64,000 nucleotides of DNA from Castanea sativa. Its lineage: Eukaryota > Streptophyta > Magnoliopsida > Fagales > Fagaceae. Shown in pieces: positions 27,664 to 51,643 of this stretch (position 1 is its first letter; each line of letters starts with the position of its first letter). Made by a program: the position numbers and the translations under genes. A model generated the notes under the pieces. It was given only the letters and a program-made list of their open reading frames with translations. It had not been told where the DNA came from and ran no database searches. The stretch covers positions 23,685,614 through 23,749,613 of the forward strand of contig NC_134015.1 in NCBI RefSeq assembly GCF_040712315.1, read 5' to 3'.

Positions 27664-27960
27664 GGCAAAAATAGCAGGCCCGGTTTGCCAACTATATAAT
27701 TTAGTAATATCTCGAGGCTCAGAGGTTCGATTTTGGGCTATAAAACCGAGTCTTAAAGACTCGATTTTTCCAGTTTGATGTGGTGTTTTATTCACGTGGC
27801 CTCCATTTGGAAATCAAGCCTCTAAGACTCGAGTTTTATACCGAGCATTAAAGACTCGATTCCTATCGGAGAGTCCACGTAGACGCCACTTAGATCTCGA
27901 GTCTTAGAGACTCGGTTTGCTAAAAATGAAACCGAGTCTCAGAAACTCTATATTTAAATA
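27664..27960 (+). repeat. Left terminal inverted repeat of the giant MULE
   Basis: Starts GGCAAAAATAGCA, then CTCGAGGCTC and repeated CGAGTCTTAAAGACTCGATT-type palindromes. Compared with the right TIR it lacks about 35 bp just inside the tip. Confidence 0.75.
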
Positions 27961-28343
27961 GGGTCTTTCACCAGTCAGAGGTCCCATCTGTCACTTCCAT
28001 GTCTGGTCTGCAGCTGTAGCTCTCCTGTAAGTCTCTCGGGAATCTTCAGAAAAAGAAGTCATGGTCTCCATGTCTGTATGTCTTCAAAAAAAGAAGACAT
28101 GGTCTCCATGTCTGTAGGTCTCTTGTAGGTCTCTCGGGAATCTTCAAAAAAAGAACTGTCCAAGAATCTAACCATCTCCATATTTCTTCAGAAAAGCAAA
28201 ACCATCCCATATTCAATGAATGTCCAGCAAAGCAAAACCATCTCATACACATTTAGCAAACATTGCTCCTCTCTCAACTCTCACACATACATTGCTCCTC
28301 TCTTCACTCTCATACAATCCTAGTAGCATATTTGCACATCCTC

Positions 28344-31300
28344 ATGTCAGGTAAGGGTCTCCTCACTCTCTAGGAAGTCTTTTTGCTAGCTTTCGGTGAA
28401 TTTATCTGCTTCCCTTTCTCCATAATTTGTATTAAATTTGAGTTTGTATATCACATCTGGTATATTTAATTGTATATTAATGCCTTGATTTTGAAATTAG
28501 ATGATATGTCTAATTTTGATTGCTCATGATCATATTTACATTAGTGTGTTTTTTTTTTTTTTTTTGTCTGATGAACCCTTCTCTATGTTATTTCATTAAT
28601 AGTAGTGTAATAGGGTATGCCATGAATTTTCTTGCACTGGAATGATGATGTTACATAATTGCACTCATTCATTTGCACATCCTCATGACTTTTGTTGTTT
28701 GGTTTGATATTTTTATTTATATTTTTGTTAGAACTGAGTTGAAATATTGTAATGGGGGTGAGTTTTGTCTTTAGTTTTTTTTTATTTGTTTGAGTATGAA
28801 ATGATAATGATTGAGTGTGTTTGTATGTGATGTGGGGTGAGTATATGCAATTGTGGGGTGAGAAGTTGTAATTTTTGTACTTTGAGTAGATATTCAAGGT
28901 TTTGTAATTAATGTTAAATAAAATAGATAAAATATGTCACTAACATATTATACTTTACTCTCTAATAGGTTCACAATCTCTGAAGAATATTGATATAAAT
29001 GTATACTATGGTGGACCCCTTGATAATCCTGGAGAGATTGACGGATTCCCATTTAGAGGGCTAAGTATTGAATGCAACTACATGATGATACGTCGTAAGT
29101 TGAAGACGTTGGATGATTTGAAGAGGAAAATAATGCACTCATTGAATTTGAACCCTGCTTGGTATGACATCAAGATTATTTATCGTTACCCACAAGAAGT
29201 CCTTCATGAACGGATAAATTACGGGTATATGGCGATCAAAGAAGACAAACATGTAAAGATGATGTTTAATAGGATCCAAAAAATGCCCCAAATAAATGCT
29301 GCTGAGTTGTACGTAAGTTCGGAACCGCTTGTAGAAGTTGATACTGAGGTGGTGCAACAAACAACTACGGCTTTACAATTTACAGCCCTAGATGATGGAT
29401 GTACTACAATGGGAGGGTATACAATGGGAGGTTATACACTCCCATCTCAAGATCATGTTGCCAATACTAGTGAACCCATCCATCTTCAAGAGACACATTT
29501 AGAGGAGGAAGACGAAGACGAAGATCATACCGCGAATGATGTTGAAAATATTGATGATGTGGATGAATACGAAGAGAGGATTGAGCGAGACGACTTTGAG
29601 AACGATATGGATGACCATGAAGTTGTTCCCAATTTTGAAGAGGAAAATATGGAGTATCATGATGAAGGTGATGCAGACGATGATATTGGCATCCAGCATG
29701 ATACAAATACGACCACTACCTACAGACCTCCTGCCAACTCATTTTACGCAAATACTTGGGAAAATATGGTTGATCCTTCACGTCTTCAAATACCATTTGT
29801 TTCTAATTGGGAAGATGGGATGCATTTTCATAAAGGGTTGACTTTTGCAAATAAAGAGGCGGTGAAGCGTGCATTGATAATATATGCAGCAAATGATAAT
29901 AGAAATTTTATAATTCGGAGGTCGACCAAAAGTAAATTGTGCGCTGCATGCGTTGACGACAATTGCAAGTGGTACATTGGGGCATTCATGAAGGTTAAAC
30001 TTAATGGTCTATGGATGGTCACGTCTTATGTGGGTCCACACACTTGTATACCCTTTGGCCTGCGAAGAGACGGTAAAATGATGGATTCTAATTTTGTTGC
30101 ATCAGAAATTGTGGAAAAATTGCGACAAAATCACACTACTCGTATACAAGATCTCTGGGACATCATACATACTAAGTATAAACATGAGGTTTCTTACTAT
30201 AAAGTATGGGATACAAAACAAAAGGCAATAGCTAAGATATTTGGGGATTGGGAGGAGTCTTACCAAAGGTTGCGAAAGTTGTTGTTGGCATACTTGGATC
30301 AGGATTCGGGTACCTAGTACAACTATCACACCATACCTAGGCCATACGAGAATTCTGCGTTACTGCGCTATGTATATTGGGCATTTCCTTCATGCATTGC
30401 TGCATTCCAATATTGCAGGCCATTGATCGGTATTGATGGGACTCATTTGTATGGTAAATACAAAGGGGTATTGATGATTGCAATGGCAACCGATGCTAAC
30501 CAAAAGGTTTTGCCTCTTGCCTTTGCTGTTGTGGACAAGAAGTTAGAGGCTAGTTGGGGGTGGTTTTCAGAGTGTCTCTGGGCTTCGATTGAGCATGTTA
30601 TACCTGCCAAGGGCATTTGCATTATTTCTGACCGACATAAGGGTATCAAAAATGCCATTCGACAGTGGCCTAGAGGGAGGGACGGAACAGAATAGGTATA
30701 TCACCGATATTGCCTTCGACATGTTGCTAGCAACTTCAACAGACGCTTTGATGACCCGATTCTAAAGGCATTGGCCTTGAAAGCTAGATATGCAACCCAT
30801 GAAGCTAAATTTGAATCCATAATGCAAATCATTAAGGAGGCCGAGATTAATTTACTGAGGGGTGTAGACCCTACTGATCGTCATGTTGCACGCTGTATGC
30901 CATACACATATTTAATCAGTGAGGATCTAGACAAATGGACCCAGTCACATGATGGTGGAAGACGTTATGGGGCAATGACAACCAATATCTCTGAGTGCTT
31001 TAATGGGGTACTTAAAAGTGCCCGCGATTTGCCCATTGCGGCAATGGTTGAGTTCACTTGGTCCAAACTTGTTGCATATTTCCACGATCGACATAAAAAA
31101 ATTACTTCTGATCTCTCTCGAGGTAAGGTGTGGAGTGATTATGCAATGGAGATCTATAACAAAAATGTGCAGAAAACCGCAGGTCACACTATGAGGAATT
31201 TTAATCATGAAACTGGTGTATATCAAGTGCTTACCCCGTACAACGACCATAGAGGTGGAGGGGGAAACCACAGTCATGAAGTGCACGTATTTGATAGAAT

Positions 31301-31721
31301 ATGTGGTTGGGGAAAGTGGCAAAACTTGAAGATCCCTTGTTCACATGCAATTAAAGTTCTTCAAGGTCTGCACTTCGATGCGACCAGCTATATTGACCCA
31401 TGTTACAGTTTGAACAACGCCATTCACACATATTCACATCATTTTGTGGTGCCAAAGTCAGAGTCATTGTGGAGGGACGTTCACGGACCACAGTGGGTGC
31501 CTGACCCACAGCTGTTGCGGGCTAAAGGTCGTCTTGTGGCCTCAAGAATAAGGAATGAAATGGATGGGGTACGGCGAGAACGGGGAAGCCGGAGGGAAGA
31601 TCCGGACTTGAGGGAGATTCAACCGAGGCAGCGATGTGGAGTGTGTCATCAAGAGGGGCATAACCGTAGAAGCTGTCCCAATTCCCGTGGGGCTTCGACA
31701 AGTGGTAGTGCTACAAACTAG
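28344..31721 (+). pseudogene. mudrA: mudrA-type MULE transposase gene with two nonsense codons
   Basis: Exon 1 is seven bases (28344-28350, ATGTCAG) with a GTAAGG donor. Exon 2 starts at 28969 after TCTAATAG and runs in one frame to 31721. The combined frame is 920 codons with in-frame TAG at 30315-30317 and 30693-30695. Both sit where relatives would have Gln, so each is explained by CAG to TAG. Domains: N-terminal MuDR-like region, acidic linker (about residues 145-210), FAR1/MuDR DNA-binding region (FANKEAVKRALIIYA), MULE transposase core (GIDGTHLYGKYKG, IISDRHKGI, NISECFNGVLKSARDLP), SWIM zinc finger (IPCSHAI) and a CCHC knuckle (CGVCHQEGHNRRSCPN). The SWIM finger reads CGW where the usual motif is CxC, so one zinc ligand is missing. 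Long leader repeats lie upstream. Confidence 0.85.

Positions 31722-32275: not shown

Positions 32276-32278
<3 letters not shown>
31722..32278 (+). other. mudrA 3' untranslated region
   Basis: T/G-rich, AT-biased sequence downstream of the transposase stop with no further coding region. It contains local repeats (GTTGTTGCTGAATGT and variants) and ends at an A32 run at about 32279-32310. Confidence 0.45.
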
Positions 32279-32310
<32 letters not shown>

Positions 32311-32313
<3 letters not shown>

Positions 32314-32815
32314 TAGTGGAAATCGAGTCTTTGAAACTCGATTTACATTGGGTGGCATATGCGTAAATTGTGGCAAGACGAATTTAAAAAAAGCGACTGA
32401 AAAGGAAATCGAGCCTTTGAACCTCGATTTTTTGTGGAAATAAAGTTTTAAAGGCTCGATTTCCACGGGATATATTTTAAGAAAAGCCAATGATAAAAAA
32501 ATCGAGCCTTTGAAACTCGATTTTCTTTGGAAATAAAGTTTCAAAGGCTCGATTTCCACGAGATATATTATTTTAAAAAAAGCCACTGAAAATCGAGCCT
32601 TTGAAACTCGATTTCCTTTGGAAATAAAGTTTCAAAGGCTCGATTTCCACGGGATATATATATATTAAAAAAAGCCACTGAACAGGAAAGCGAGCCTTTG
32701 AAACTCGATTTCCTTTGGAAATAAAGTTTCAAATGCTCGATTTCCACTGATTTTCCATTAAAAATCGAGTTTCAAAGGCTCGATTTCTACTGGAATATAT
32801 ATATATATATATTTA
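32311..32815. repeat. Tandem array of palindromic AATCGAG motifs
   Basis: Four to five units of about 95-115 bp. Each has ATCGAGCCTTTGAAACTCGAT (a near-palindrome), TTGGAAATAAAGTTT, then CAAAGGCTCGATTTCCAC, separated by AT-rich spacers and AAAAGCCACTGAA. The same palindrome core occurs in the TIRs at 27.7, 36.85, 37.6 and 51.4 kb. It may be a transposase-binding array or a duplicated subterminal region. Confidence 0.8.
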
Positions 32816-33134
32816 TATTTTTTTTTTCCAAATTTGATAACTAATTTCAGAACACTATAAAATAACAAAACTATGAAATTAATCTAAAACTTCAATGTTT
32901 AATTTCAAACTTTTGGAATTAAATAGTTTAGTTTCAATTTTTAAATTTTTCCCTCTTACAAACCACCTTAAATCATAGGCGCGCTACTGGCCTTATATAA
33001 TTCCAGACTTTACAGTTGCAAATAGAATACCTATAAATACAATGTGGTCCATTGGAGACTCTTGCACCAATACAACAACAAGATCACAGTTTATTTTATA
33101 GGTACACCAATACATTTTATGATAGCAAAAAAAG

Positions 33135-33452
33135 AGAGACCATAACTCTTTCAAGATGCCTCAAGACAGTTAACCACAAAATCAACTCCATATATTGAAA
33201 GTGGTTCAAGTATCCAACGACTACATGTCCATAAACTCACATCATAACCCACACCGCCAGATAAAATCAATCATTGGGTAGAAATGTTGCTGATTTCGTC
33301 ATTTTTTGGAGGTTCATATGGCGGCCGGTTTTCAAGTTCTGCTTCAGCAGCAGCGAGATTCTCTTTAGCTTAATGATTCTATCTTGACGAGATTCTTCTT
33401 GCTCCTTAAGTCTTCCATTTCTTTATATTTTTCCCTCGTACTTGCACCCCCT
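33135..33452 (-). pseudogene. SMC5-like coiled-coil exon, inverted-repeat arm 1
   Basis: Reverse-complement counterpart of 34899-35221 with a few differences. The minus-strand reading starts near GGGGTGCAAGTACGAGGG and reads into the same coiled-coil sequence. An internal difference (a TAA where arm 2 has intact codons) breaks this copy. SMC5 belongs to the SMC5/6 DNA-repair complex; here only part of the coiled coil is present. Confidence 0.5.
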
Positions 33453-34898
33453 ATTGAAAATGTAAATGAACCTCCAAACCTGAGAATAAATACAATCGTG
33501 TGACAAGAAACGTACAGCTACGAGGCACCACAGAAGATTCTTTCTTGACAAAATTTATAGCTGACTCTTCAAAAGTTATAAGATAGAAAACTTACTTTAA
33601 CATACATTGTCCTCAATTTTGCAAGTGAAGGCAAAATCAGGCCAACGCAAGCATGGAACAGGCAAAAAATATTGTGACTAAAACTCCAATTTCCTGCAGA
33701 TTAGAATTGAACAGTGTAAATGTCCCAACATCTAACACTAGAGTCACAATAGACAAATATATTTCTCATAATTCCATAAATATAAGATGTGTACCTGATA
33801 ATCATAAGCTACTATAGACAACACAAGTCCCATTATAATAAAGGAGATACAATTTTTCATATAACAGATTTGTAATAATGGGAGCCATGAGTTGGAAACT
33901 TTTAGAGTAGGACATGGGCCAATCGTGTAGGCTATTGCTTGGCATATGCATTATCTACTTATAATTACAAAATATTTTCTTCATTTATGCAAGTGAAAGC
34001 ACCAAAATAATCTCTCCAAGAAACACAACCTACCAAACTCATCCAATTCAACATGTAAATGATCATGAAACTAAGCAACCAAAGCAATCCCTATAGAACT
34101 GAGCTTGCATTTCGAGATTACGTGCAGACATGACATAGAACTGACCTCTCACCACCAACCACACAAACAGCACATGTTCCAATTGATGTAGATTCATCCT
34201 TGTAATAATGTACCTAATTACAATTTTGATAATCGTCTTAACATGAGGAAGAAGGTGAAGACATAACCAAAGTTCAGTTGTAAGTCTAAGACAAAGAGAA
34301 ACTCACATTAACACCCGCTGATTTTTAATTTTTTGTCATCTCCTCTCCAAACTTGTCCTTTCCAATGGAGCCAATGTAACCAGTTGCACCATTACATTTG
34401 GAGCATCCACTGGGAGAGACAAAAAAAAGAGACCAGGGTAGAGAGAATCAATCAATTCTATTTCATAAAAATTTAGCTTAACAAAAATGAATAATTTTTT
34501 CTTAGAAATATGAAACCAGACCTGAGCAACTTTGATTGAATTCCAATGTAGCACCTAAAGTGACACGATATGATTTCAATTTCCCATTACAAGACAGATA
34601 AGAACACCATTACATGTAGGTATCTTCCATAAAGACATATTAGTAGCAGTATCAATAGCCATTCATGTCAATGTGAAAAGAGACATTACGAAGAAGTTCC
34701 TCTCAATCTTCTACCAACTCCTTCATCATCTGGATGCCTCAAAACAAGCATCACTTTCTAGCAAGGTTTTCACTTAGGCCACTATGTCAGGCACTTGGCT
34801 GTGAAATTCAAAAGAAAGAGAGTCTCTAGCTTCTTTTAATGACAGTATCACTCTTGAAATCCTAAATCCTCAGGTTTTACATTCATTTACATTTTCTA
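33453..34898. other. Spacer between the SMC5-like arms
   Basis: AT-rich, intron-like sequence. I cannot support any gene in it. Confidence 0.35.
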
Positions 34899-35221
34899 TA
34901 GGGGTGCAAGTACAAGGGAAAAATATAAAGAAATGGAAGACCTGAGCAAGCAAGAAGAATCTCGTCAAGAAAGAATCATTAAAGCTAAAGAGAATCTCGC
35001 TGCTACTGAAGCAGAACTTGAAAACCTGCCGCCATATGAACCTCCAAAAAATGACGAAATCAACAACATTTCTACCCAATGATTGATTTTATCTGGCGGC
35101 GTGGGTTATGATGTGAGTTTATGGACATATAGTTGTTGGAGACTTGAACCACTTTCAATATATAGAGCTGATTTTGTGGTTAACTGTCTTGAGGCATCTT
35201 GAAAGAGTTATGGTCTCTTGG
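34899..35221 (+). pseudogene. SMC5-like coiled-coil exon, inverted-repeat arm 2
   Basis: After an acceptor-like TTTTCTATAG the plus strand reads GVQVQGK, then, after a two-base insertion, YKEMEDLSKQEESRQERIIK, AKENLAATEAELENLPPYEP and PKNDEI before a stop. The Lys/Glu-rich heptad pattern and the ELENLPPYEPPK end match my recollection of plant SMC5 coiled-coil sequence. The two arms are separated by about 1.45 kb and would form a hairpin if transcribed together. The identity should be confirmed by search. Confidence 0.5.
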
Positions 35222-36573
35222 CTGCCCATTTTCAAAGTTTATTAGTGATGGAGGGACAAATCCAGCTTCAAATCCATATTTGCTATTGTCTTACAAAAAT
35301 GAAGAGTGCGTACATTTTTAAATCTAACATGAAGCACTAAACAAGGCAATTAATCATGTTCCATTGGCTATATTAGTTAGGTAAAATTGGGCAGAAAGGC
35401 AATCACTTTAAGACTTTTTTTTTTTTTTTAGTGACGTAAACTCTTGTTTAATTAATAGTTCAATGCATATTTCATTTCCAATGGTAATGTGAGGATAATT
35501 TTTTTTTTTGAACAAAGTTTCTTGGTACTGTAACTCCCTCCAAAATCACAGTTTACATTTTTCTGACTTTCTACCCCGCATGCATTTATCCATAGTTATA
35601 ACTATGGAAACTTTGAAAACTCTTTTCACAACTAATGAATGTCCATAGTTATAACTAATGAATGTCGGGAAAATTATTAATTCCAATGTTAATTTGAATA
35701 GATAGAGTAAGCAAACAAAATAATAATGAGAATGACAGTTTTCACTCTTAAACTATTGCAAATATAGTAAAACGCATAAATAGAATATAATATTTTTATT
35801 CTTAAAGGCATAAACATAATGCACAACATTAAGAAGAGGATATTATGATAGCAAAAAATAATTGTATAACATAGACTGCGTTAATTAAAATTTGAACATT
35901 GTAAGACGAAACATTCTACTGGTCAATAGAATGTTCTTTTTTACTTGGTGGAAGGCCTGCCTTGATCATGAGTTAATTATTTTTTTACCATATTATAAGA
36001 CAAATAAAATATAATTTATTTGATTAGGGGCTTAGGCCATTGCCTAAATAGCCCAATGCCTGATTAAAAAAAAGGCGATGAAAAAAAATTATAGTTGACA
36101 TTAGAATAAGGAGGTTTATTGCTATTAATACCATTAATCTTGGTATGAAGAATTCAATTTGTATGAATTAAAATATGGAGGTACAAACCCCATTGCATAA
36201 CCAAAGATTTCATAACCAGCAAGAGACTATTGGTGAGGTAACAAAAAAATCAAACTAAGAAAAAAAATTATATCTCCTTCGGAACTGTTAATGTTTTCTT
36301 AAGTCCAAAAAAACTAGAAACAAAATAAAAGAAAAACGAATACACAAAAGATCAAGTAAGGGGGGGGGGAGGGGGAGCACCTGAGGATCAAATCATTATA
36401 GAACTTGAATAAATGGAAACTAAAGAGTTCACAACTAAACCACATTTTGAAAAAAAAAAAAAAAAAAAAACCTAGTTGAATATAGTAAAAATTCTAAGCA
36501 GAAGGAAAGAAATTAATTAATAAAACACAAAAGGGGAAAAGGGGAAAAAAATCAATTGGCAAGCCCTCCTTAC
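35222..36573. other. No gene recognised
   Basis: AT-rich sequence with a G-rich run near 36360-36378 and A/T tracts. I looked on the minus strand for the next phytyl-ester-synthase exon and did not find it. Confidence 0.35.
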
Positions 36574-36748
36574 AGAAAGATATGGTAACAACCCAGACAG
36601 CCTTTCAAATCTTTGCTCAGGAGGAAGCATGCTTTCAATATTCACTGCTGCCATCTTCACTAGATCACCTAATGTCACGACAGTAGACAATGATATATCA
36701 GAAATCAAGAAATTTGGGACTGCAACAACTGACAGCTTATAAAAACAC

Positions 36749-37759
36749 GGAGAAAATAGTAAAATAGGCATAAGTTTCTAACTATATAATTAGTTGTTAC
36801 GGTTTGCAAACTATATCTTTTACTAGCATCTCGAGTATAAGAGACTCGATTTTGGGTCTAAAAATCGAGTTTTTGAGGGTCGATTTTTAATATCTGATGT
36901 GGCAATTTTTCCTACGTGGAGTCTACCTGAAAATCGAGTCTCTAACACTCGATTTACCAGCCAAAACATTTTCAGATCTAAGTTCTGTTCCCTAAAATAC
37001 ACAATCACCAAAACCCACCTATCTCAAATCAAAATCCATCCACCACCGATCACAACTGAGCATAACCCATAAAAAAAAAAAAAAAACCAACGTCCCCAGG
37101 TCTGGGCGACCCAGGCTGCGCTACCTGGGCGCGCGGATGGGCGACCCAGGCCGATCGCCCAGGTCGCGCGACCCAGGACCGCGCGCCCAGGTAGCGCGGC
37201 CTGGGTCGCGCAGGCGCAGGTCCGCGCAACCTGGGCGCGCGGCCCAGGTCGCGCGACCCTAGTCCGCGCGACCCGGGCCGCGCGCCCGGGTCGCGCGGAC
37301 TGCGCTGCGCGACCCAGGCCGCGCTACCTGGGCGCGCGGACCTGGGTCGCGCTACCTGGGCGAGCGCGGCCTGGGTCGCCCGGACCTGGGTCGCCTGGAC
37401 CTGGGTCGCACTATCTGGGCGCGGCGGCGAGTCTGTGGCAGCGTGGAGGAGGAAGAAATGAGCCATGGAGAGGAAGTGAGGAAGAAAGAAGCAAAGGGAG
37501 AGCTCAGATGTGAAACGGAGAAAAATAAGGAGATATAAGATGTAAATCAAGTCTCTAAGACTCGATTTCCAACTAGATGCCACATGAAAAATATGCCACA
37601 TCAGATGAAATTAGACCATAAAAATCGACTCTCAAAAACTCGATTTATAGACCCAAAATCGAGTCTCTTAGACTCGAGATGCTAGTAAAAGATATAGTTT
37701 GCAAACCGTAACAACTAATTATATAGTTAGAAACTTATGCCTATTTTACTATTTTCTCC
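36749..37759. mobile_element. Nested non-autonomous MULE with a GC-rich core (1,011 bp)
   Basis: Terminal inverted repeats of about 215 bp begin GGAGAAAATAGTAAAATAGG; the outermost 69 bp or so are identical at both ends. A perfect 9-bp duplication, TAAAAACAC, is at 36740-36748 and 37760-37768, the Mutator length. It sits in the last intron of the PES-like fragment, 81 bp upstream of its acceptor. It shares the AAATCGAG palindromes with the giant element's TIRs. It encodes no transposase. The near-identical arms point to recent movement. Confidence 0.92.
37085..37435. repeat. GC-rich self-complementary tract inside the nested MULE
   Basis: About 350 bp of very high GC made of degenerate alternating CGCGACCCAGG and CCTGGGTCGCG units with GCGCGCCCAGGTAGCGCG variants, in strongly AT-rich surroundings. 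On the minus strand it follows a pyrimidine-rich leader and an ATG (about 37466) whose frame stays open through the repeats (MAHFFLLHAATDSPPRPD). It may be a captured 5' UTR plus start, expanded by repetition. Confidence 0.8.
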
Positions 37760-37768
37760 TAAAAACAC

Positions 37769-38456: not shown

Positions 38457-38835
38457 CCATAATAGCGCTAAGATAGGGAACTGCACTGTGCAGTCCATTG
38501 GGCATAGTCCCCAGGAGAAGAAAAAGTGGCTGCAGCTGAGACCTGGCAAATGATGTTGCTAAAACAAAATACCAAAAGGTCAGGATTTCTCAAATGATAA
38601 CCATTGATCATCAACCAGAAACATACATGATTATATATATTAAAAACAATGAACTGTTTATGAGGAATCTAACGAGGATTGGATATATGTATAACTAGGT
38701 CAATCGCAGGATTGCAAGAAGCAACAGCAAGTGGTAGGCATCCTCCAAAGTAATCATAAGCTACCAAATGAATTGGCTTATCAATATATGAAGCGTGCTC
38801 AAACCTCACAATTTCTTCTACAAGTTTTACCAACC

Positions 38836-41744
38836 CTTCACAGAAGCAAAAAACATTGAACTATAAATTACAATATCTAGGAAATTAAAGGATAAACCAA
38901 ACCCAACCACATGTGAAGAACAGGCACACAACACTTTCATTAAAGACCGGGAATATTTTATCACTGTGTAGGAAATTTCTACAGATTCTGTTAGAAAATG
39001 ATGATTTCAAATATCTAAAATGGAATAATAATAGTAATTTTCTGACTAAATTAACATAGAATATGATGAATTTGATTAATTCAAAAAAACTTGGGAGAGG
39101 CCACCCTATGTTGTCTTCGCACTATGGAGCCCATAGGCAAGTGAAGAAGTTCCTAAGAAGCCAACTTGCTAATCTTAGATACCATTACCCACAAACAAAC
39201 CCGCCATACATCTTAATTCAAACATGTGAAGAGGCATGTACATCCCAATAAGAATTTTAACTTTGCTAATTCAATCATGAAGCTAACTTGGACTAGCCTA
39301 TTGAGGATTTGTGCCAACCCCAAAGTTTTGGCACTTGCCATTGCAAATCAGGCCAGAGCTCTTAAAGATTTTTCTCAATATATACAAAAGAACTTCATAA
39401 TGAATAATTGGCATGTTGTATTTAATCATAAGTTACCGTCAAAATCCCTATAATTCATGTGAGGAAAAATTCAGTATATAAACATAAAAAAATGGGCAGC
39501 TTTGAATAAAAGGTGCTAGCAATAAATGAATAATTTTGTCTTTCATTTGTGTTTAAACAAAGATTTTACAATTAATGAATTATAGTTTGATGCAATTAAC
39601 AAAGAACAATATTTTACTAATCAGTGGTTTTACAGCGCAAAAGATACCGTAAGATCAACTTTAATTGCCTCTATAATCTATTTGTTTTTATTTTTATTTT
39701 ATTACTTTCCTGTGCATACTTTCAGCAAAAAAAGCTAGATAAGTTGTTTTCAAACAAATAGTTAGAGCGTTTGAATATAGCTTTTTGCAAAATTTTCTAT
39801 TTGCTTAATTGCTCATAAGTTGGTTCAAATATAGTTGTACCAAAAGAGTGTTCAATTTTCCTCCCTAAAACTTTGCAAAATATTCTATTTTTCAAGCTTC
39901 TATCTATGTCCCTTAGTTTATATATCTTACGTGGCTTAACAGAGTGATAAGACTTGGACAATATTAATTTATTTTTAAAATTTTAAAAAAATGTTAACGG
40001 ATGCCCTTAAGGCAATGGTTAACAATCTTTTTAAAGAAAGATTTTATGAAAAAAAAAAAAAAACAACAACAACAATTAACATTTTGACAACTTTTTTTGT
40101 TTCCTATAAAAGAAATGTCAAAACTTTCCTAAAATGGATTATTAACAATTGCCCTAAGGGTACTCGTTAGCATGACCCTTAAAAAAATATGGAGCACAAT
40201 GATTGGCATGTGAATTAAAAATTTCAGTGAAACAAATTTGTCCCTCACAAACCTGGTGATTCAATCTCAAACATCCCCAAACCCCCAACACTGAAAGAAA
40301 ACCTCATCACCATAGTCATAATATGGCCTCAATCGACAACCCCAACCTAGCAATAATGTTCAACAACAACCTCCCTCCTTGTGTATTTCTCTATAATCAC
40401 TGAGTTGGGGTCATCGATTGAGGCAATCGACTATAGTGTAGCAGTTTCCTTTCAGCTTTAGGGACATTCGACTCTACTAGGCTATTTTGGTCCAGTTATG
40501 TGGGAGTGAGAGGCAAATTTGACTATGATAATTTGAATCCACATAAGCAAGTTATTTTGTTCCACGTGTTTTTAATTTTAAAAAACATATTAATTTTGTC
40601 AAAGTCATATACCACATCAACACTGTGTTAAGCCATATAAGACAAACAATTTGACTTCAGCACAAAAAGTGAACTTTTGAAAATTTTAGAGACAAAAAAA
40701 AATAATATGAAAGTTTAGAGACAAAAATGGTATTTTATAATTATTTATTTATTAAAAAATTATTATATTATTTATGATATTATGGACAGTAAAACAAACT
40801 TAATTAATCAATAAATCTCACTTACTTTATAAAATAGCTAGTTTGGGTGCAACATGCTGCCCCTTAGTGATAAATTCAAATAGAACTCTAATTTAACATG
40901 TACTTAAACTTAGAGTAGCTATTTAATAAGCGAATATCTATATACTATAGTTTCAGAGAACTTCTTTACTAAAAGCAATATCCAGTCACTAAAAAAATTC
41001 TAGGAATTATAACGAATGCCATTTTCTTTCAACAATAAGCAATTGAGTTTTACTAACCTATTGCCACAATATTTAAATTTTCCCAATGAATGATGAAATC
41101 TGTTACAATTAAAGTTATTCATCAATTAACCTGCAACCATCCGCAATAAAGATTTTCCTATTCATATGTTTTTCTTTATCATGTTACATTTAATGAGTCT
41201 AGCTATGATGTTTAACTTAGTTTTTTAATATTACCCCAATTGTCTATATCCTGCCAAAAATAGGTACCAATACCATCTTCTATATAATATTTGAGGAACT
41301 GTCCTCCTAAATATGGGTCCATAAAAGTATTGAACTACCATATGCAATCCCAAGCAAATGTCAACATTGCCTTATAGGACCTTATTTGTCCTTTTCTAGT
41401 GTGCGGATGATATCAAATGAACCATATTTCTCTAATAAATTGAACATTAATATACACATGCACGTCCATGTCTCTTGATTTAATCATATGAAGTTCGAAC
41501 CAATCCCCAAAAAAGTGTAGACAAACTAATCCCCAATATAACCCCAAATAAACAATAGAAAACAAGACAAGTTGATCTTTTTAAAGTGTAAAGGGACCAC
41601 TCATGTTACAATTCAGTCCAAAACACTAGTCATCTTCCTCAGTTAAAAAATGAACTTTTATATCTTACAATCACAGAAACCCAGCTAGAAATGTAGTAAT
41701 GAAGCAAAATATGTACAAGCAAGCTATTAATGCAAAAGACTAAC
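38836..41744. other. Long intron-like stretch of the PES-like fragment
   Basis: AT-rich sequence between two PES-like exons. I recognise no gene in it; much of it is probably inserted repeat. Confidence 0.35.
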
Positions 41745-42252: not shown

Positions 42253-43267
42253 CTGCATTGAAGAAAGTTCTATAAATTATTGCTAACCATAAAATAAATA
42301 TCCACAGATAAGTTTCCACCATAGTCACTGTAAATAGTGCACAACTGCAGATGCAACCAAAAAGGAAAGTAATAGAGAAAAACACTTTGAACTGCAATAA
42401 AAGTGAAAAGAGACTTTCTCTTTTCTTTTCCTTTTTTTTTGGGGGCGGGGGGAAGGGGGGAGGACCATTTTTCTCAGTAGGTCACACAAGACACAACTAT
42501 CACCTTGCCAAAACAGAATGGATATATATAACTAACCACATTAGGTAGCATCAACAAGTGTGAAGCCATAAAACAGAAGAAAAGGCAGAACTGCAAATAC
42601 ATTTCTCAACCAACGACTTGCACTAATGTGGCATTGCACAGTTAGAGCAATTAAATGCTATCTGTCATAGATTCGAGAATTCTGGTTTATCATCAATACA
42701 TTGTTTGATCCATTTCCATTTTCCTAAAACCATATAATCAAGACAATCAACTGTAACCTAGATGGTGCATAACATGAAACCAACAGATTTGTTGCTCCAA
42801 ATTTTCGTATATCATATCAGCCCCAAATTTTTGCTGTGCATAACATGAAATCAAGAGTGATGAAGAATAAACTAGCCCAAAGAGCCAAGGAGGTCGGATG
42901 TATATAGCATTAAAATGATTCCAAAATTAATAAATAAATAAATAAATAAAGGAATACAGTAAAAATATGCACATTTTTAAATTTTTAAATCTAACATGAA
43001 TGATCATGAACTGTGCAGTGCCATGAGTCAGTACCACACCCTTAATAATTCTCCCCTTCAACTCCTACTAAACATCCAAAAGTAGACAATCAGTCTTATG
43101 AGCTTATATAAGCAGTCTACCCATTTCCTTAACTAAACCACTACCCGAGAGTCTTTTCCATTTTATTTTTCTTTTTTTTTGGCTGAGGTAGTTGGAAGTG
43201 GGGGCAACTACAAAAAACAGCAACACAATGGACCAGTTAAAGAAATAGGAAACACATAAGCACTCAC
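42253..43267. other. No gene recognised
   Basis: Lies between the PES-like and MRS2-like exons. It contains a G-rich run near 42441-42462 and an AATA microsatellite near 42929-42952. I could not find the upstream PES exon here. Confidence 0.35.
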
Positions 43268-43636
43268 CTTAGACGTAAGCTCATCTAATGCAGGATAAGC
43301 AGCAGTGTCCAATTCTGTTGTGCGTGCAGCAAGGAAACTACGGGTAGCTTCCAAAGCTACCTCCATGGCCCAGAATTCAAATGGAAACTCTACATTACAT
43401 AATTTAGATCATTCATATAACAAGAAATAAAAAAAGGACTGACAAGGTTCGTTCTAATATTGAGAAAATACACAAGATGAAAGTAATGCACATTTCCAAA
43501 ACAACAATAACAGTTTGAACTCTTCACTAATCAAGATTGTTTTGATTCAAATTTTAACCATTAAATTAATATTGCTTACCATCTTCTACACCCGCATCAA
43601 TGTCATTTTGGCCCCCTCCGTACTCGTTCCCATCAC
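43268..43636 (-). pseudogene. MRS2-type magnesium transporter exon(s), captured fragment
   Basis: Exon 43389-43268 reads [40 protein letters not shown], flanked by a GTAG acceptor and a GTGAGT donor. This is the highly conserved cytosolic segment of plant MRS2/MGT (CorA-type) Mg channels; relatives have FRALEVALEA. A small upstream exon, 43636-43580 (GDGNEYGGGQNDIDAGVED), joins it in phase with GT-AG borders; whether it is MRS2 or PMD sequence is unclear. The GMN pore motif and membrane helices are absent. It is on the same strand as the PMD and PES pieces, so one transcript could join them. Confidence 0.65.
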
Positions 43637-43769
43637 CTAGTTCCAATAATGTACGTTAAAACCATATTGAAAACAAAAATAATATCACGAAGTAATCAAC
43701 AGTAGGTTGAAATGTGAAAAGAGGAATACCGCTGGTTATAAAGTGTGTTGTTTCACATTAAGCTTTGAG

Positions 43770-46658
43770 TTACCTTTTTTGAATCTTATGTCGTCTCGTA
43801 TAATGAGGAGGAGGTCTTGCATGTCCTTCGTCAGATGCCTCGGGCCCAGCATTGTGTCCATGTTTGTGCCCCCCTGTCCCACAAGGAGGTGCCTTTGATA
43901 TGCGTTTTGGCCGACCTTTTGCCACTGCAGGTAACCCAACAGTCTGCTCAGCCTGAACATGGGGTAGGTCGATGGCTGAAGAAGGGCCAGTAGATGTACT
44001 GTAGGAGGGTGGCTCCTGCTGCATGTTAGGTGGATTTGGATCAATACCCAAGTCAAAGGATGAAATGGGTAACAGCTGAGGAAATGACCGTGGAGTGGGT
44101 GGACGAATGTCAGACCCAGGACAAGGATGTGAGGTGGGTGTCAGGATGTTGAGGCGAGGAGATGGATGTAGGGTGGGTGAAGGGATGGTGGGGGTAGGGG
44201 ATGGATGTGGGGTGGATGAAGGGATGGTAGGGCTAGGGGATGGATGTGGGGTGGATGGAGAAGGATCGGGGGTAGGGACAACCCGAGGGGTAGCAACAGG
44301 CGGACGAGGGCGACATCCGGCCGGGGTTGTGCTCGTGCTTGGGCCCGCAGGAGTAGGTGCCTCCTCATTCGGGGCCTCAGGGATAGGAGGTTGTACACAT
44401 TCAATCGCATGCATTGCCGTCAGGACCTCAGTAATGTCCTTGTGGTCCTCTGTGCCCACTGGGTGACGCCTCAACAAACGGACGTATCCTTCAATCTGCA
44501 CATGGAAAAACCACACATATTAGTAATGCAATACCAAATCAACAATGCCAATCGATAATAAAATAAATGTTGGTTCAGAATTGGTTCTACTAGTAATAAT
44601 TGCAAATTACAGGGAGACCAAGTGCTAAGCAGAAAATGTAGTAACATATATCATGTTATCTAAACAGTGGTTTCATGCTATTTCAGTACGATAAGATGTA
44701 GAAGACATTGAGAAGTTACCAGCAGAGTCACTATAGCACCGGGCCTATCTATGAACCTCCGAGTTATCCTTTTGAACCAGTCGTGGTACTCGTGCTGTGG
44801 AGGCATATCACCAAGCACTGCTTCACAACGCCGTTGAAGGTGATTACCCCACTCATCGATATGCACAGCATGTTTTCGCTTCCAATCAACACCGACCTTC
44901 CCCCTCAAATCAATGCCATGAAGCACTGTATCAGTGTCAACATTGCGGAGAATTTCTTGGATCATCCCAAATTGACGAACGACACGATCTGGTGTATGTT
45001 TTTCTACTAGGTGGAAACATACAAGCGGCACCGTTGCCGTCCACACGGCCCTCCCTGCAACGCACCACGGCGGAAGGTCCTCTAACTCAGCTTCATATGG
45101 CTACCACACCATCTACAACAGCCAAAAAACAAGTACACAACACATTAGGCAACAATGTTTATATTTCAAAGCTCACCAAACCTATATCTTGTTCCTAAAC
45201 ATGTAAAACAATGCATTTTCATACCTGGCCTGGCAACATTGAAGCTATTTGCTCGCGATACCTGTCCCTGAAGATGTGGGCGGGCCTATTTTTCTTGTTT
45301 GGGACCCACAACCACTTACAATCAAGAACAATAGATCAATATCTACAACTTTCGTACTAAGATAATTCCAATGTTAAAACTATAATGCAATCACATATAA
45401 CTACTGAGATAATCTTATGGATATTTACTTAATTAATAATATCACTAGAATAAGAAATAGTCCTTATAAAAAACAAAGCACATACAAGCCACATGACAAT
45501 CACAAAATTAGAGTATATTAACGTAATCATATATATTGAACCTCTATTTGAAATTTACGCAATGTTGACATAAAAAATTGCTAGAAGCCTTTAAAATAAA
45601 TAAATAAAATCAAGTTACATGATTGTGGGCTTAGGTAATGATCACATAATGTATATAACGTGCATGAGGTAAAGACTTACTTTAGGGACAGTGGACCACG
45701 CACTGGAGGACCATAAGCACCCACTGGCAGGCCATGCTCAACTGCCGGGCACAAATAGGGGAACCTGGCCCATGCCCAATACTGGAGTAACAGTAAGCAC
45801 CCACCAATCTGACTGGTGTCCTCGCTTGCCCTGCATAGCTCTCGGTACAACTATGCAAGGCAAACACTTCCCCAACTGTACCTTCGTGGGTTACGAAGGT
45901 CTTCCAACTGCTGCACCCACATTAGATGCACCCTATCGCCGGATTTGTTCATGAATATTGTGTCCCCCAGTAGTGCTAGGATGTAGCATCGTGCGTACTT
46001 ATGTAGCTGGTCCTCTTCAGCATTAGGCGGCAATGGATTAGCAACTTGCTCCAAAAGCCGGTTGATGAGAATCCTCTGGCCAGTAAGTTTCTTATGGTTG
46101 TCTTAATTTATAGGTTGAAAGCCAAGGAAGTCCCGGCACACATCCACCCAAGTTTTCTGCGTGCTCCCTATTATAGCGTCACCATCAACAGGAAGCCCGA
46201 GAAGAACCTCCACATCCTGCAATGTGATGGTGATCTCACCATGTGGCATGTGGAAGGTGTGAGTCTCGGGCCGCCATCGCTTCACTAAGGCCGTTATCAG
46301 ACCTTGGTCAATCTCTCAACCCGGGACCCAAAGGAGTCCCTCCAAACTAACTGCCTTGATGATGTTCCTGACTCGGTCGTCCACCATTGGCTCTCGATTA
46401 GAGAACTCTGAACTACGGCTACGGCAGGTAACGGATCCTGGATCCTGCACAGAATAGAACCATGGATTAATATATGACGACAAATGCATGTACATTGTAT
46501 GAATTAAATGCATGTACATTAGTTAAATCTTTAGTGTTATGTTTTACCTGCCCATTCCAAATAGCTTTGGACCGATGCTTGAGCTGCTTTGACAACACCG
46601 ACCTGTCAATGGGTCCAGGCTCTGTATAGTCAATCCGCCCAGCATTTGCAGCAGCCAT
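43770..46658 (-). pseudogene. Plant mobile domain (PMD) gene, decayed; PPP7-long-form-like
   Basis: Five exons: 46658-46548, 46444-45681, 45314-45225, 45112-44720, 44495-43770 (about 694 codons if undamaged). Family hallmarks: GPIDRSVL...[67 protein letters not shown] and QLEDLRNPRRYSWGS. The C-terminal exon is Pro/Ser repeats plus PCGTGGHKHGH. PMD proteins occur both in MULE-type transposons and as host genes (MAIN/MAIL, gene silencing). Breaks: TGA at 46318-46316, TAA at 46105-46103, TAG at 45853-45851, TAG at 45103-45101, and a one-base deletion at the exon 2 donor that upsets phase (764 nt instead of 765). All four nonsense codons are single transitions. Confidence 0.85.
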
Positions 46659-47367
46659 ACTACACAAAAATGATAAGCAGTTAGTTTGAGAAATGAACAC
46701 ACAATATGCTTATGGAACTAGGTATGAGTTAGAGCAACTAAAGCCAATTTGTACAACGAGAATTCCGTAAAAGATGAAAGACTGAACCAAAAGAGGCCAA
46801 TATGAAGACAGAGCTTTTTAGACTTAGGATTTTTTTTTTAAGGCAAATTTTTGAAGCAAGAAAAAAAGTAGTAGTAGCAATTAACTGCAGCCGAACCAGA
46901 TTAGAATTAATAAACTAAGATGCAAGCAGATTAATAAACTGTAAAGTGCACGTTTTCTAAATTTTTATATGGATGTAATGATTTTTATGGATATAATGCT
47001 TTCTATGGGTATTAGTCATCTCGTTATATGGATGTAATGCTTTCTATTCTATAGCGAAGAAGAACAAGTTTTCCAAATATTGACCCATGTTATGAAACTT
47101 TGGACGTGTGATGCCAAGGAAATCCTCAGTGCGATGCCTAGAAGAGTTCAGTCATACTTGGGACATCCGACAGCAAAACAAGTTTGCCTAGTCATAATTA
47201 AACCCCAAAAAAGTAATTTAGATAACCTGATTGTGGTCTTAGTTTGATTTGTCCTTTATATAGAAGATACATTTTCACCTAGAATGTATTGATTATGAGT
47301 CAAAATACTCGTCTTCTCACTTTCCCCTTTCTCTGACATTTTTTGTTCCTATTATGAATCAAAATTA
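46659..47367. other. Region upstream of the PMD gene
   Basis: AT-rich DNA that should include the PMD promoter. Local repeats of ATGGATGTAATG/ATGGATATAATG near 46970-47045. Nothing else recognised. Confidence 0.35.
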
Positions 47368-48055
47368 GGCGTAAATGCACTTTTGGTCCCTACATTTTGG
47401 AGTTATTTCTATTTTGGTCCCTACATTTTATTTTTACCATTTTTAGTCCCTAAACCAATTAACGCGTGACATTTAAGTCTTTACCGTCACCTAACTAACA
47501 GAAAATGCTGACGTGGCTAATGGCACAGTAAAATAATAATTAAAAAAATCTATTTTGGTATTAAAAAATTGCCACGTTAGCGTATAAATTAATTTTAAAT
47601 TAAACATAAAAAAATTAAAAACAAAAAATTGAATATGAACATCATCAACAACAAGCTAGAATCAAGAACATGAACATCAAACCCAGAATCAAGAACATGA
47701 ACACCAAAGAACAACACCACAACAAATAAAAACAAACCTCTAAAATTTCACACCTAAAACGCACAACACCACAAACAACAATTCACAAACCCAAACTTCA
47801 GGAAAAAAATTTAGCAATGAAAACAAACTCAAAATCAAGAACACGATATCTTTAGCATCAGAGAAATGATTACCTTGAAGAAAAGTGATGTCGAGGTTGT
47901 GGACTGGGATCATGAGGACTGGGATCATAAGGATCATGCCAACCCCAAATGAAAGGACAGCAACAGAAAATGATTTTAGAAAAATAAAAATAAAAAGCAA
48001 CTGCAAACAAAACTAAACTAATATCGAACTTGCAGTGAGAGCTATTCCACTATAA

Positions 48056-48060
<5 letters not shown>

Positions 48061-48093
<33 letters not shown>
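48061..48093. repeat. (CT)n microsatellite
   Basis: Sixteen or so CT units in the captured nicalin leader. Confidence 0.95.
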
Positions 48094-48099
<6 letters not shown>

Positions 48100-48196
48100 A
48101 CTGTAAAACTGACACTCTCAAATTTTTATAAATCAAAAATCAAAATAATCGAATCTATATATATCTGAATCTCGAAACCCTAGATCTTCTTCATCG

Positions 48197-48476
48197 ATGG
48201 GTTCGCGAAAAGCGAGCGAGCGAGAAATGTTGGACTCGGTGTGCTCGATGATCGCGCTCATCTTCTTCCTCGTGACCTACGTCGAGCTCTGCGACGCCGC
48301 CACTGTCGTCGACGTTTACCGTCTCATCCAGTATGACATCTCCGGCGCACCCTTCGGATCTCGCCTCGCCAAGCTCAACCACCACGCCGGCTCTCTCCAC
48401 TTCCCTCCTGGCGCTGATCTCTCCCGTACCGTCCTCATGATCCCAGTCCATGACCTCAACATCACTTTTCTTCAAG
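48197..48476 (+). pseudogene. Captured first exon of nicalin
   Basis: Reads MGSRKASEREMLDSVCSM, then a hydrophobic signal-anchor segment, then CDAATVVDVYRLIQYDISG, FGSRLAKLNHHAGSLHFPPG and DLNITFLQ up to a GTACTC donor. This matches the N-terminus of plant nicalin-1, an ER membrane protein of the nicastrin/M28 family. The captured part includes a leader with a (CT)n tract (48061-48093) and part of intron 1. A second, inverted copy of the exon 3' end and intron lies at about 47640-47935. The frame of this exon is intact but the rest of the gene is absent. Confidence 0.8.
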
Positions 48477-49419
48477 GTACTCATTTCTTGATTCTGGGTT
48501 TGTTTTCATTGCTAAATTTTGTTCTTGAAGTTTGGGTTTGTGAATTGTTGTTTGTGGTGTTGTGCGTTTTGGGTGTGGAATTTTAGAGGTTTGTTTTTAT
48601 TTGTTGTGGTGTTGTTCTTTGGTGTTCATATTCTTGATTCTGGGTTTGATGTTCATGTTCTTATTCTGGGTTTGTTGTTGTTGAGGTTCATATTCAATTT
48701 TTTGTTTTTAATTTTGCTTTTAATTTTGTTTTAATTTTTTTTATTTAATTTAAAATTAATTTATACGCTGACGTGGCAATTTTTTAATACCAAAATAGAT
48801 TTTTTAATTATTATTTTATTGTGCCGTTAGCCACGTCAGCATTTTCTGTTAGTTGGGTGACGGTAAGGACTTAAATGTCACGCGTTAATTGGTTTAGGGA
48901 CTAAAAGTGGTAAAAATAAAATGTAAGGACCAAAATAGAAATGACCCCAAAATGTAGGGACCAAAAATGCATTTACGCCTCAAAACTATTGTATACAACA
49001 ATGCCTGATAATAAAAAAAAAAGAACTCACCATAAACAGGATACAAACACTCAACAACTGACAAGAACAGATCAAACTAAAACCAGAAAACAACCCAGAT
49101 TGTTAAAACTCAACCCCTTAGAAAAAAAAAAACACAATAATTTCCACACAAATCCAGCAAAACCTCTGTTCATAGAAGAAAAATTCAAATGGTCCCATCC
49201 ATATACATCAAGGTAGCCAGAGAAACATCAAAAAAAAATTGAGCATGCATTTGAACATCCCATGGAAATTAAAAAGAACCATTATTTTATATAACTTCAT
49301 AGAGAAATCTATCACAAGTCATGGAACAATAAAGTAATTGGAAATATGGGGATTAGGAAGAAAAACCTACTAAATGATCTTAGGTTGATGGAGGAGAAAA
49401 GGAACAGTGGATATTTGTC

Positions 49420-50055
49420 TGAGGAAGATAGATAAAAAATGGTGGAGGTGAAGGCAACCTTGGAAAAAACAATGTATTGGAGGAGATCTCTTGGAGAAAA
49501 AAAAAATCAGTATTCTTATTGTGGCTAAAAGAAGGTGATAAAAAAACAAACTTTTCCCCTGATTCCTGATTCTCATCATTGCCGTACTTTTATTGCAAAT
49601 ATAACAAATATGGAGAGCAACTAGGTTACTCAAGATGCAATCCAGGAGGAAGTGGTTCAGGCATCGTGTGGGGATAAAGCTCTGGGTCTTCATGGTTTTA
49701 CAATTGCTTTCTTCAATCACTGTTGGGTGGTGGTTAGAGTGGAGGTATTAGCCAATTTGCAGCCTTTTCATGACTGTGGTGTATTCAAAAAAATGCTTGA
49801 ATGTGACTTTTGTGTCTCTTATTCCTAAGAAGGGAGGGGCCTCAGATCTCAACGTTTTCAGACCTATAAGTGTAGGATGTGTGTACAGAATATTGGCTAA
49901 AATTTTAGCAAATATATTGAAGGAGGTGTTAGGGAAATTAATTTCCCAATTATATAATGCAATTGTGCAGGAGAGGCAAATTCTGGGTTTAGTTCTTATT
50001 GTGAAAAAATGCGTAGACCACAGAGTTGTCACTTGTCAGGCAGCCCTGTAATTTT
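49420..50055 (+). mobile_element. LINE RT N-terminal fragment
   Basis: Plus-strand pieces in LINE order: SVFLLWLKEGDKKTNF, then ALGLHGFTIAFFNHCW (frame-adjusted), LNVTFVSLIPKKGGASDLNV, FRPISVGCVYRILAKILANI. It stops after VTCQAAL. It is decayed and 3'-incomplete, inside the giant MULE. Confidence 0.65.
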
Positions 50056-50070
50056 AATTAACTTTTTTTT

Positions 50071-50192
50071 TAAGATACACTTAACACTAACCTGAATTTT
50101 TTTGTATATGATCCATGAATACACTTACACTAACCAGAATTTTTTTGTATATGCTCCGTGAATACACTTACACTAACCAGAATTTTATCTAG
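50071..50192. repeat. Short tandem repeat, about 47-bp unit
   Basis: About 2.6 copies of a unit containing ACACTAACCAGAATTTTTTT, GTATATGCTCC and GTGAATACACTT. Confidence 0.85.
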
Positions 50193-51345
50193 GGCTTATT
50201 GAAATATAATTACAAGTTTGGGTAGCTACTCAGTTGCTGGTGTCAAGAGAAATCAATTAAAAACAAGACCCATAACAATCTAAGAAAAACAAATCCTATA
50301 AGAAGTTCAAGGAAATCCAGCAAAGATTAATAAAATAAAATGGGTGTACAAAAATAACAATAATTGAAACAAGATACATAGGATTGGCATAACAATTTAA
50401 CGAAAAGAAACCCTTCAAAAAAAGAAAAAAAGAAGCATACTATATGAGAATACAACACCAATTTCAGGTAAAAACTACCAAAGTGGGAGGAAAAGTTCTA
50501 CCCCGAGTATTGTAAGACTAAACAAAATTATCAGCATTCAGTAGGGTTTGATGCCTTCTTAAAGGAGATCCCCAGGATAATAGTTTGCTTGTGGAATATG
50601 TGGTGCACAAAGATAATTGCAAATAAGAAATAAGACAGGATAGGGTTTTATCTTTTCTATAATAAAAGAGGGGGGGGGGGGATCAAACTCTCTTAAAAGT
50701 TCAAAAAAAAAAGTTAGGAACACAATTCTCATGAAAAATAATGGTTTTATTGTGTCCTTGCACTAATTACACACTAGCCTACATCAATTCAATTCACAAG
50801 CATACCAACACAGCCAAAGCAAACCCAAAACCCCAAAATCCCAAACCAAACACACACAGAAAATACCCATTCTTAATAAACCCAGATTCAACGCAAAATA
50901 CATAGCAAACTTCTAGCAATTTCAGAATAATCCATGAACAAAGAAAAAAGGAAAAGACCATTCACTTACCTTACAAGTTGTTCTCTCAATCAAGGTTTTC
51001 TCTGTGAGCAAGAGGGAGGCAGTGGAGGCGCAGAGCAAGATAAAGGGTTATCAGATTTTTCCCACTGTTTCTCGGCAACCAAACAATGAACTTTGTACAA
51101 AGTACTCACCTTTTTTTTTAGTTTTGAGAGACCGCGTAGACTAAAGGAAAAGGGTGGAGACTGAGTGAGAGAACAGTGGTGAGTACGAAGAGGATGAGTG
51201 AGTGAGAGTGGAGAGGGTGAGCGAGTGAGAGAGGCTGAGGTTCGGTGTGTGAGAGTGAGAGGGTGGGTGAGAGGGAGAGTGAGAGCGTGAGAGTCTGCTG
51301 TGTTAGAGAGAGGGGAAAGTATCTGTGTGAGAGGAGTTAATTTTG
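50193..51345. other. No gene recognised
   Basis: AT-rich sequence followed, from about 51120, by a GA-rich tract of GAGTGAGAG units that leads into the right TIR. A G10 run lies near 50670. The GA-rich part could be a captured 5' leader, but I have no coding evidence. Confidence 0.35.
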
Positions 51346-51349
51346 AAAA

Positions 51350-51643
51350 AACCCCAAATTGAAATCGAGTCTTAGAAACTCGGTTTCCTGTTTTTCCATG
51401 TGGATCAACCACGTCATACCCAGATGGCCATGTCACATAAATCGAGTCTTAGAGACTCGATTTTCAGGTGGACGCCACGTGAAAAAAATGCCACATCAAA
51501 CTAAAAAACCGAGCCTCAAAGACTCAATTTATAGGCCCAAAATCAAGCCTCTAAGACTCGAGATGTTACTAAATTATATAATTTGGGAACCGGGCTTGCT
51601 AACTATATAGTTGAAAAGTAATGGCTAATTTGCTATTTTCGCC
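51350..51643 (-). repeat. Right terminal inverted repeat of the giant MULE
   Basis: Read inward from 51643: GGCGAAAATAGCA, then a segment absent from the left TIR, then AAATTATATAATTTAGTAAC, CTCGAGTCTTAGAGGCTTGA and further AATCGAGTCTCTAAGACTCG palindromes. It matches the left TIR over most of its length, including GTTTGATGTGGCATTTT...CACGTGG. Confidence 0.75.

Follow-up and report, generated by a model that had tools for sequence, protein, structure and literature searches.

Background

Two genes make up the maize transposon MuDR, each beginning at a long terminal inverted repeat (TIR), and insertion of the element leaves a 9-bp target-site duplication (TSD). Here we describe a locus in Castanea sativa that follows a similar plan, at positions 27664-51643 of a 64,000-bp stretch of contig NC_134015.1 (assembly GCF_040712315.1; hereafter the window, whose first letter is position 1), directly upstream of the gene INTS11. 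These 24 kb are very probably one Mutator-like element (MULE), an old, inactivated copy of a giant, multi-copy chestnut family in which a mudrA transposase gene is accompanied by a gene for a plant mobile domain (PMD) protein, a relative of the MAIN/MAIL silencing proteins.

Several described systems share parts of this arrangement. The two genes of MuDR are read in opposite directions (PMC9168764), and sections of Ikeda et al. 2017 report PMDs carried by MULEs, fused to the transposase, in grasses and Amborella (PMC5418596). Very long MULEs are described for grapevine, where, in the corresponding parts of that paper, the families Mutavine-1 and Mutavine-18 measure 17.7 and 16.2 kb and an accessory gene, ULP1, occurs in either orientation (PMC2528002). 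The VANDAL/Hiun elements with VANC carry extra genes together with tandem arrays of short motifs in their noncoding parts, according to portions of one study (PMC5735166), and a passage of another classes VANDALs as non-TIR MULEs (PMC13317346). Excerpts of two further articles give an upper size of 7 kb for the first set of Pack-MULEs (PMC6431247) and extra internal TIRs for MULEs of tomato (PMC3310237). Within the open-access literature searched we found no report of this chestnut PMD-MULE family, and the papers listed for Castanea and MULEs never mention Castanea.

Results

Ends of the element

Homologous, inverted Mutator-type TIRs bound the element, the left TIR with its subterminal region at 27664-27960 (plus strand) and the right at 51360-51643 (minus strand), with GGCAAAAATAGC and GGCGAAAATAGC as their outermost bases. 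When the window was compared with itself, 27672-27835 aligned in inverted orientation with 51439-51601 at 81.8% identity over 165 bp (E 4e-37). Palindromes of the form CGAGTCT-NNN-AGACTCG fill both subterminal regions, five on the left at no more than two mismatches (six at no more than three) and four on the right. Outside the TIRs stand GAATAGGA (27656-27663) and GAATAGGC (51644-51651), identical at seven of eight positions; 200,000 position pairs drawn at random from the window gave such a match a chance of 0.001 when the ends were kept fixed, and a further 200,000 gave 0.006 when length and ends were allowed to vary. The first-pass annotation, made from the window alone, had named both TIRs, a GAATAGG beside each of them, and mudrA, a PMD gene and two nested MULEs in between, and all of these held up here; GAATAGG itself occurs 12 times in the window, both strands counted.

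The left TIR lacks about 34 bp that are present in the other three ends in the window, the gap falling between TAGCA repeats. Over 27664-27850 it is far more divergent than 12 compared copy ends and rich in transversions. The right TIR differs from the majority of those 12 ends at nine positions, all of them C-to-T or G-to-A, where the other ends show 6-12 differences. Because the left TIR is odd, identity within the window pair is low. TIR identity was rejected as proof of pairing, the right TIR being equally like the nested element N1 and the end at 27664, and the case is therefore carried by the genomic copies and the TSD.

Copies elsewhere in the genome

The genome, very probably that of C. 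sativa (716 Mb, 13 contigs), was searched with the left TIR, yielding 53 matches; 40 of 572 candidates were scored and gave 40 places including the window, a lower bound, with 13 short matches (inside other places or with E above 1e-8) left out of the count. TIR matches are thus dispersed over at least 40 places. The seven best other left-end matches (copies A-G, from 39 other TIR places) were fetched at 30 kb each. Six of these seven, A-F, have a left TIR, a minus-strand PMD gene and a right TIR, the TIRs being paired and about 210 bp long, and five of the six complete copies also contain a plus-strand mudrA, C being the one without. In length they run to 21,751 (A), 9710 (B), 7723 (C), 6024 (D), 8383 (E) and 11,531 bp (F). 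MULE TSDs span 8-11 bp, usually 9, and 9-bp near-duplications of seven to nine matching positions flank five of the six complete copies (A 8/9, C 8/9, D 7/9, E 7/9, F 9/9; each score the highest among 25 end placements, with no shift needed in C-F); for B the best value, 5/9, amounts to none.

Copy A follows the order of the window all the way from left leader to right end, captured SMC5 sequence included, with identities of 92-97% over mudrA, common cargo and PMD and of 79-82% across the leader and TIR segments further out. Since other copies have the same ends around mudrA and PMD and copy A is colinear throughout, 27664 and 51643 belong to one element, and the search for copies with the same two ends and a similar interior, proposed when the locus was first annotated, came out in its favour. 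The recurrent copies are a mobile family, not a chance pile-up. In copy G mudrA is present, while neither a PMD gene nor a right end was found within its 30 kb, 5,000 bases of which are N. The closest relative of the cargo (97%) is a further copy, H (L030-L033, C1:43969000-44008999), with cargo, PMD and right TIR; positions 24-56 kb of the window match H solely inside the element, which speaks against a segmental duplication there. B, C, D, E and F each have a different inner junction, as in internal-deletion derivatives, and the cargo-bearing form of about 19-22 kb is therefore probably the full-length element. No relatives of the family were found among viral contigs.

The transposase gene and its palindrome array

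The predicted mudrA-type transposase gene (28989-31721, plus strand) matches Pfam DBD_Tnp_Mut (26 bits, cut-off 25) and MULE. It carries in-frame TAG codons at 30315 and 30693 and is 82% identical to a Quercus lobata protein over that protein's length, its nearest proteins being from Fagaceae. The SWIM cysteine of its relatives is W in the window, and Pfam SWIM was matched in the homologue P0001 and not in the window piece. Upstream, a CT-rich noncoding leader (28200-28350, plus strand) ends in a donor-like CAG|GTAAGG near 28350, a motif found near the matching place in five of six copies (A, B, D, E, F). Dating the insertion from TIR divergence was dropped, the 23% between the window's TIRs being in conflict with two stops in 910 mudrA codons and the left TIR being odd; in simulations with 0.06 and 0.08 changes per site, mudrA gained no more than two new stops with P 0.07 and 0.015, respectively.

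Downstream of mudrA, at 32309-32795, lies an array of TIR-type palindromes in units of about 93 bp repeated 3.9 times (32383-32747 in TRF). The window contains 20 palindromes at up to two mismatches, 19 of which fall within the array, N1 or one of the ends, and allowing three mismatches to the 17-mer gave 25 hits, 22 in those places, against a mean of 0.4 in 10 Markov sequences. In copies A-F the palindromes keep their layout, six at matching spacing on the left and four on the right (three in D). Two to five palindromes make up the array in copies A, B, F and G, so that it is a component of the family and not a lost end. A 50-bp stretch of it matches the right TIR along the inner edge, scoring 48 where the highest of 50 shuffles reached 29, and a full-TIR profile has no match in it before about position 80. 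An earlier statement that no right end lies at the normal distance from mudrA stands in so far as nhmmer found no second complete right end near mudrA in the window, although it had overlooked these TIR-like palindromes at 32.3-32.8 kb.

The PMD gene

The second gene (43773-46658, minus strand; coding exons at about 46658-46548, 46444-45683, 45112-44690 and 44498-43773) was recognised as PMD by Pfam, with PF10536 on four pieces, two of them below the curated cut-off; no search was aimed at mudrB. It has four in-frame stops (46318, 46105, 45853 and 45103) in 674 codons and is 76% identical to a Quercus lobata protein, with Fagaceae proteins again nearest. Its proposed leader, two noncoding exons read from splice-like motifs (50970-51355, minus strand; donors near 51110 and 50970), would run inward from the right TIR. 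Wherever both genes were read, in the window and five copies, PMD converges with mudrA from the opposite strand, so the two are not fused in one reading frame. Nor is PMD bounded by long terminal repeats as in a PMD Ty3/gypsy retrotransposon, TIRs bounding it in all six complete copies and no direct repeat pair around it being listed in the window self-comparison. A weak reverse-transcriptase piece (RVT_1, 49752-50048, E 0.0076, below the Pfam cut-off) lies in the proposed leader intron, and its stretch is common to copies E and F and hence an old part of the family. A MULE of this size with a transposase, a PMD gene and several captured genes was at first thought unusual; PMD is no odd extra here but a part of every complete copy examined.

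Lithocarpus offers a parallel. PMD and mudrA lie two tags apart at two loci (SO802_015458/015460 and SO802_017657/017659), for which P is 0.0015 among the listed 18 mudrA and 22 PMD tags, assuming 35,000 genes and no clustering. The pairs resemble each other (75-95% by pieces for mudrA, 91% for PMD) and so look like two copies of one unit.

Two side observations concern PMD genes. Upstream of the PMD start, 47038-47244 holds an open frame of 69 residues with weak Pfam matches only. In other plants, gene models from soybean and Heliosperma fuse MULE, SWIM and PMD on one strand, and an Asparagus model joins PMD to a sub-threshold MULE piece (the three proteins being P0077, P0073 and P0110), which sets eudicot and Asparagus cases beside the published ones from grasses and Amborella.

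Captured host sequence

Between the array and PMD lie two blocks of cargo, at 32842-35592 (common to A from 32995 at 93-94%, to G up to 33857 at 97%, and to H at 97%) and 39185-41333 (common to A up to 40995 at 92-96% and to H at 97%). The first contains an inverted repeat derived from SMC5, with arm 1 at 33135-33487 (minus strand) and arm 2 at 34866-35218 (plus strand), 93.5% alike, arm 2 retaining an open SMC5 frame of 41 codons. An MRS2-derived exon (43259-43384, minus strand) lies downstream of the second block, and the segment with MRS2 and PMD, 42667-51645, is common to H except for the nested element N2 (95% over 42667-46793). Reference sequences matched SMC5 (E 3e-14) and MRS2 (78.6%, E 2e-17); PDB and Pfam gave no confirmation of either.

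The search with the SMC5 block returned 157 matches, and those listed collapsed to 39 places, pieces of the same place being left out. For 24 of the 40 TIR places (window included), SMC5 cargo in the same orientation lies no more than 16 kb inward, and such TIR places account for 24 of the 39 cargo places among the matches listed. As judged from these sequence comparisons, the SMC5 and MRS2 scraps are mobile cargo of the family. Copies A-G yielded no MRS2, PES or nicalin scraps.

The SMC5 arms were compared in 15 copies, namely the window, A, H and 12 others taken from those listed with both arms, so that the presence of both arms throughout is no result in itself. Mean identity between copies was 0.939 and 0.931 for the arms against 0.894, 0.912 and 0.876 for three parts of the loop; of 105 pairs, the left arm exceeded the first loop part in 85 and the right arm did so in 74. 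The two arms of one copy resemble each other more (0.9408) than arms of different copies do (0.9285), a value reached in 0 of 20,000 permutations (P 5e-5); the window and A alone show no clear excess within copies. The plain explanation of this likeness is gene conversion between the arms. The SMC5 frame is open in 13 of 15 right arms, from which we claim no selection, the piece being merely 41 codons long.

Later insertions

Not all that now lies between the TIRs arrived with the element. A 3.6-kb block at 35593-39184, flanked by TTATCCA and TTACCCA, is missing from A and H, which have the empty site, and its contents, a PES1 scrap (38455-38559 and 38675-38839, minus strand) and the nested MULE N1, are thus later arrivals and not cargo. 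The scrap matched a reference sequence at E 2e-24 and had no match in Pfam. N1 (36749-37759) has TIRs of the same family and a TSD, TAAAAACAC, intact at nine of nine positions. Its core, 37080-37440, is very GC-rich and palindromic, of the CCAGGTCGCGCGACC type, within an AT-rich window.

N2 (47368-48979; TSD TCAAAATTA/TCAAAACTA, 8/9) carries exon 1 of nicalin at 48197-48460 on the plus strand, the exon end extending into both arms; nicalin was matched in PDB (E 7e-4). N2 is absent from D, F and H, and F retains a single target copy, TCAAAATTA. N2 is an ordinary Pack-MULE, which the whole element is not, since mudrA is present. The host exons first listed for the interior, from SMC5, PES and MRS2, therefore need sorting: all three matched reference sequences and SMC5 and MRS2 are mobile, whereas PES belongs to the later block and the nicalin exon in N2 had been missed. 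With the block and N2 subtracted, about 18.8 kb was inserted, other small gains and losses being uncounted, and not the 24 kb originally supposed.

INTS11 and the flanks

INTS11 (10842-27504, minus strand; ATG at 27504-27502) is covered in pieces by a reference sequence in tblastn. The left end of the element is 160 bp from this start codon, agreeing with the first estimate, so that 159 bp remain between ATG and TIR. The insertion may have displaced the INTS11 promoter, by 24 kb as the first-pass annotation had it, but these 159 bp, in which an AAATAAA box stands at -69, still adjoin the gene. When 150 residues of the protein (10842-11291) were searched against the genome, the one further hit was at 38%, not a close match, and by this one exon INTS11 seems to be single-copy. 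Outside the element the window also holds an inverted repeat pair (56524-57068 and 62927-63512, 77%) and a direct one (19916-20312 and 57579-57977, 71%).

Discussion

We hold that one MULE spans 27664-51643, and several observations count against this. The window TSD is imperfect, at 7/8, and not 9 bp; its TIRs are 77% alike where those of copies A-F reach 86-92%; and at 25 positions, 11 of which are transversions, the left TIR departs from the majority of 12 copy ends. The seven fetched copies were chosen as the best left-end matches and are a non-random sample, in which B has no TSD, C no mudrA and G neither PMD nor a right end within 30 kb, and donor motifs of the right leader recur in only three of six copies (D, E, F). 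For H, neither mudrA nor a left TIR was found within about 18 kb upstream, and no empty site was seen at INTS11. Promoter activity of the TIRs, binding to the palindromes and the function of PMD rest on inference.

Some of these points would also suit two separate MULEs of one TIR family, the one with mudrA having lost its right end, the other having its right end at 51643, and GAATAGG being a coincidence: the right TIR resembles N1 (78-79%) as much as it does the end at 27664, the left TIR is unusually divergent and the TSD is imperfect. Copies with TSDs, however, have the same two ends around the same convergent genes, and colinearity with A extends throughout, which leaves this account extremely unlikely. 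A chance still closer to nil attaches to an ordinary 5-kb MULE around mudrA with the array as its right TIR; the palindromes and the 50-bp match point that way, but A, B and F contain that array in their interior and continue to PMD and a right TIR, the outer part of the TIR profile is unmatched in it, and among the seven fetched copies none ends with a TSD at the array. Both readings were rejected on copies A-F.

One might instead accept a single MULE and regard its host-gene scraps as unrelated later debris that never moved with it. Such a view suits PES and nicalin, which lie in the later block and in N2 respectively, and 15 of the 39 SMC5 cargo places have no listed TIR place beside them, though only 40 TIR candidates were scored and those 15 may have unlisted TIRs. 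Against it stand the SMC5 blocks inward of most TIR places, the recurrence of the MRS2-bearing block in H and the confinement of the match with H to the element, and as an account of all the scraps we judge it very unlikely.

On the reading we prefer, a single MULE with mobile SMC5 and MRS2 cargo, the element comprises, from left to right, a TIR, a proposed spliced leader, mudrA running rightward, the palindrome array, captured host DNA, PMD running leftward, a second proposed spliced leader and a TIR. Each TIR may serve as promoter of the adjoining gene, and the transposase or the PMD protein may read the palindromes. Transposition would most likely be MuDR-like, by cut and paste with the element's own transposase; insertion of about 18.8 kb upstream of INTS11 duplicated some 8-9 bp, and the 3.6-kb block with N1 and the Pack-MULE N2 were gained afterwards. 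The PMD protein could act as an accessory or anti-silencing factor in the position of mudrB, a role suggested by its constant place in the copies examined and by the action of MAIN/MAIL1 as sections of Ikeda et al. 2017 present it (PMC5418596). The window copy cannot work as it stands, because mudrA and PMD both carry stops.

A bolder view, which we think improbable, has the family countering its host on two fronts, with PMD opposing silencing through the array in the manner of VANC and a hairpin RNA from the SMC5 inverted repeat directing RNA interference (RNAi) at host SMC5, a gene of chromosome maintenance. The hairpin draws support from the arms, whose conservation exceeds that of the loop and which resemble each other most within one copy; gene conversion explains the within-copy likeness equally well, G shows a single arm, and copies with both arms were selected, all of which weaken it.

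Taken together, the family, at about 19-22 kb, unites in one TIR transposon a transposase, a PMD gene that is separate from it and convergent, and an inverted repeat captured from SMC5. It adds a eudicot example to the fused MULE-PMDs known from grasses and Amborella, and its second gene sits in the MuDR helper position. The idea raised in sections of Ikeda et al. 2017 (PMC5418596), that PMD counters the silencing of transposons, thereby becomes testable, and the copy 160 bp from the apparent sole INTS11 start offers a natural experiment on the response of a housekeeping gene to such an insertion.

Among known systems, the grass and Amborella PMD-MULEs, as those same sections describe them, have PMD fused, where chestnut has it separate, on the other strand and in a eudicot. 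The Mutavine families are very long too, so that the chestnut size, up to 21.75 kb in copy A, is high yet has a parallel; in the sections of that study concerned, the accessory gene of the marked families is ULP1 and no PMD appears. Extra genes and motif arrays recall VANDAL/Hiun elements as partly summarised above, from which chestnut differs in having TIRs, and a PMD protein reading the array would be a guess. Pack-MULEs likewise hold host exons between TIRs, to which the chestnut element adds its own transposase and a second gene at a length far beyond the 7 kb given in the excerpt cited, and where tomato MULEs, in the portion of their description used here, have internal TIR-like sequence, the chestnut family repeats only the inner palindromes, without the terminal 80 bp or so. 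The likeness to MuDR lies in the convergent genes and the mudrA homologue; the chestnut element differs in that the second gene found is PMD where MuDR has mudrB, in being about four times as long as MuDR, and in having a palindrome array and host DNA between the two genes.

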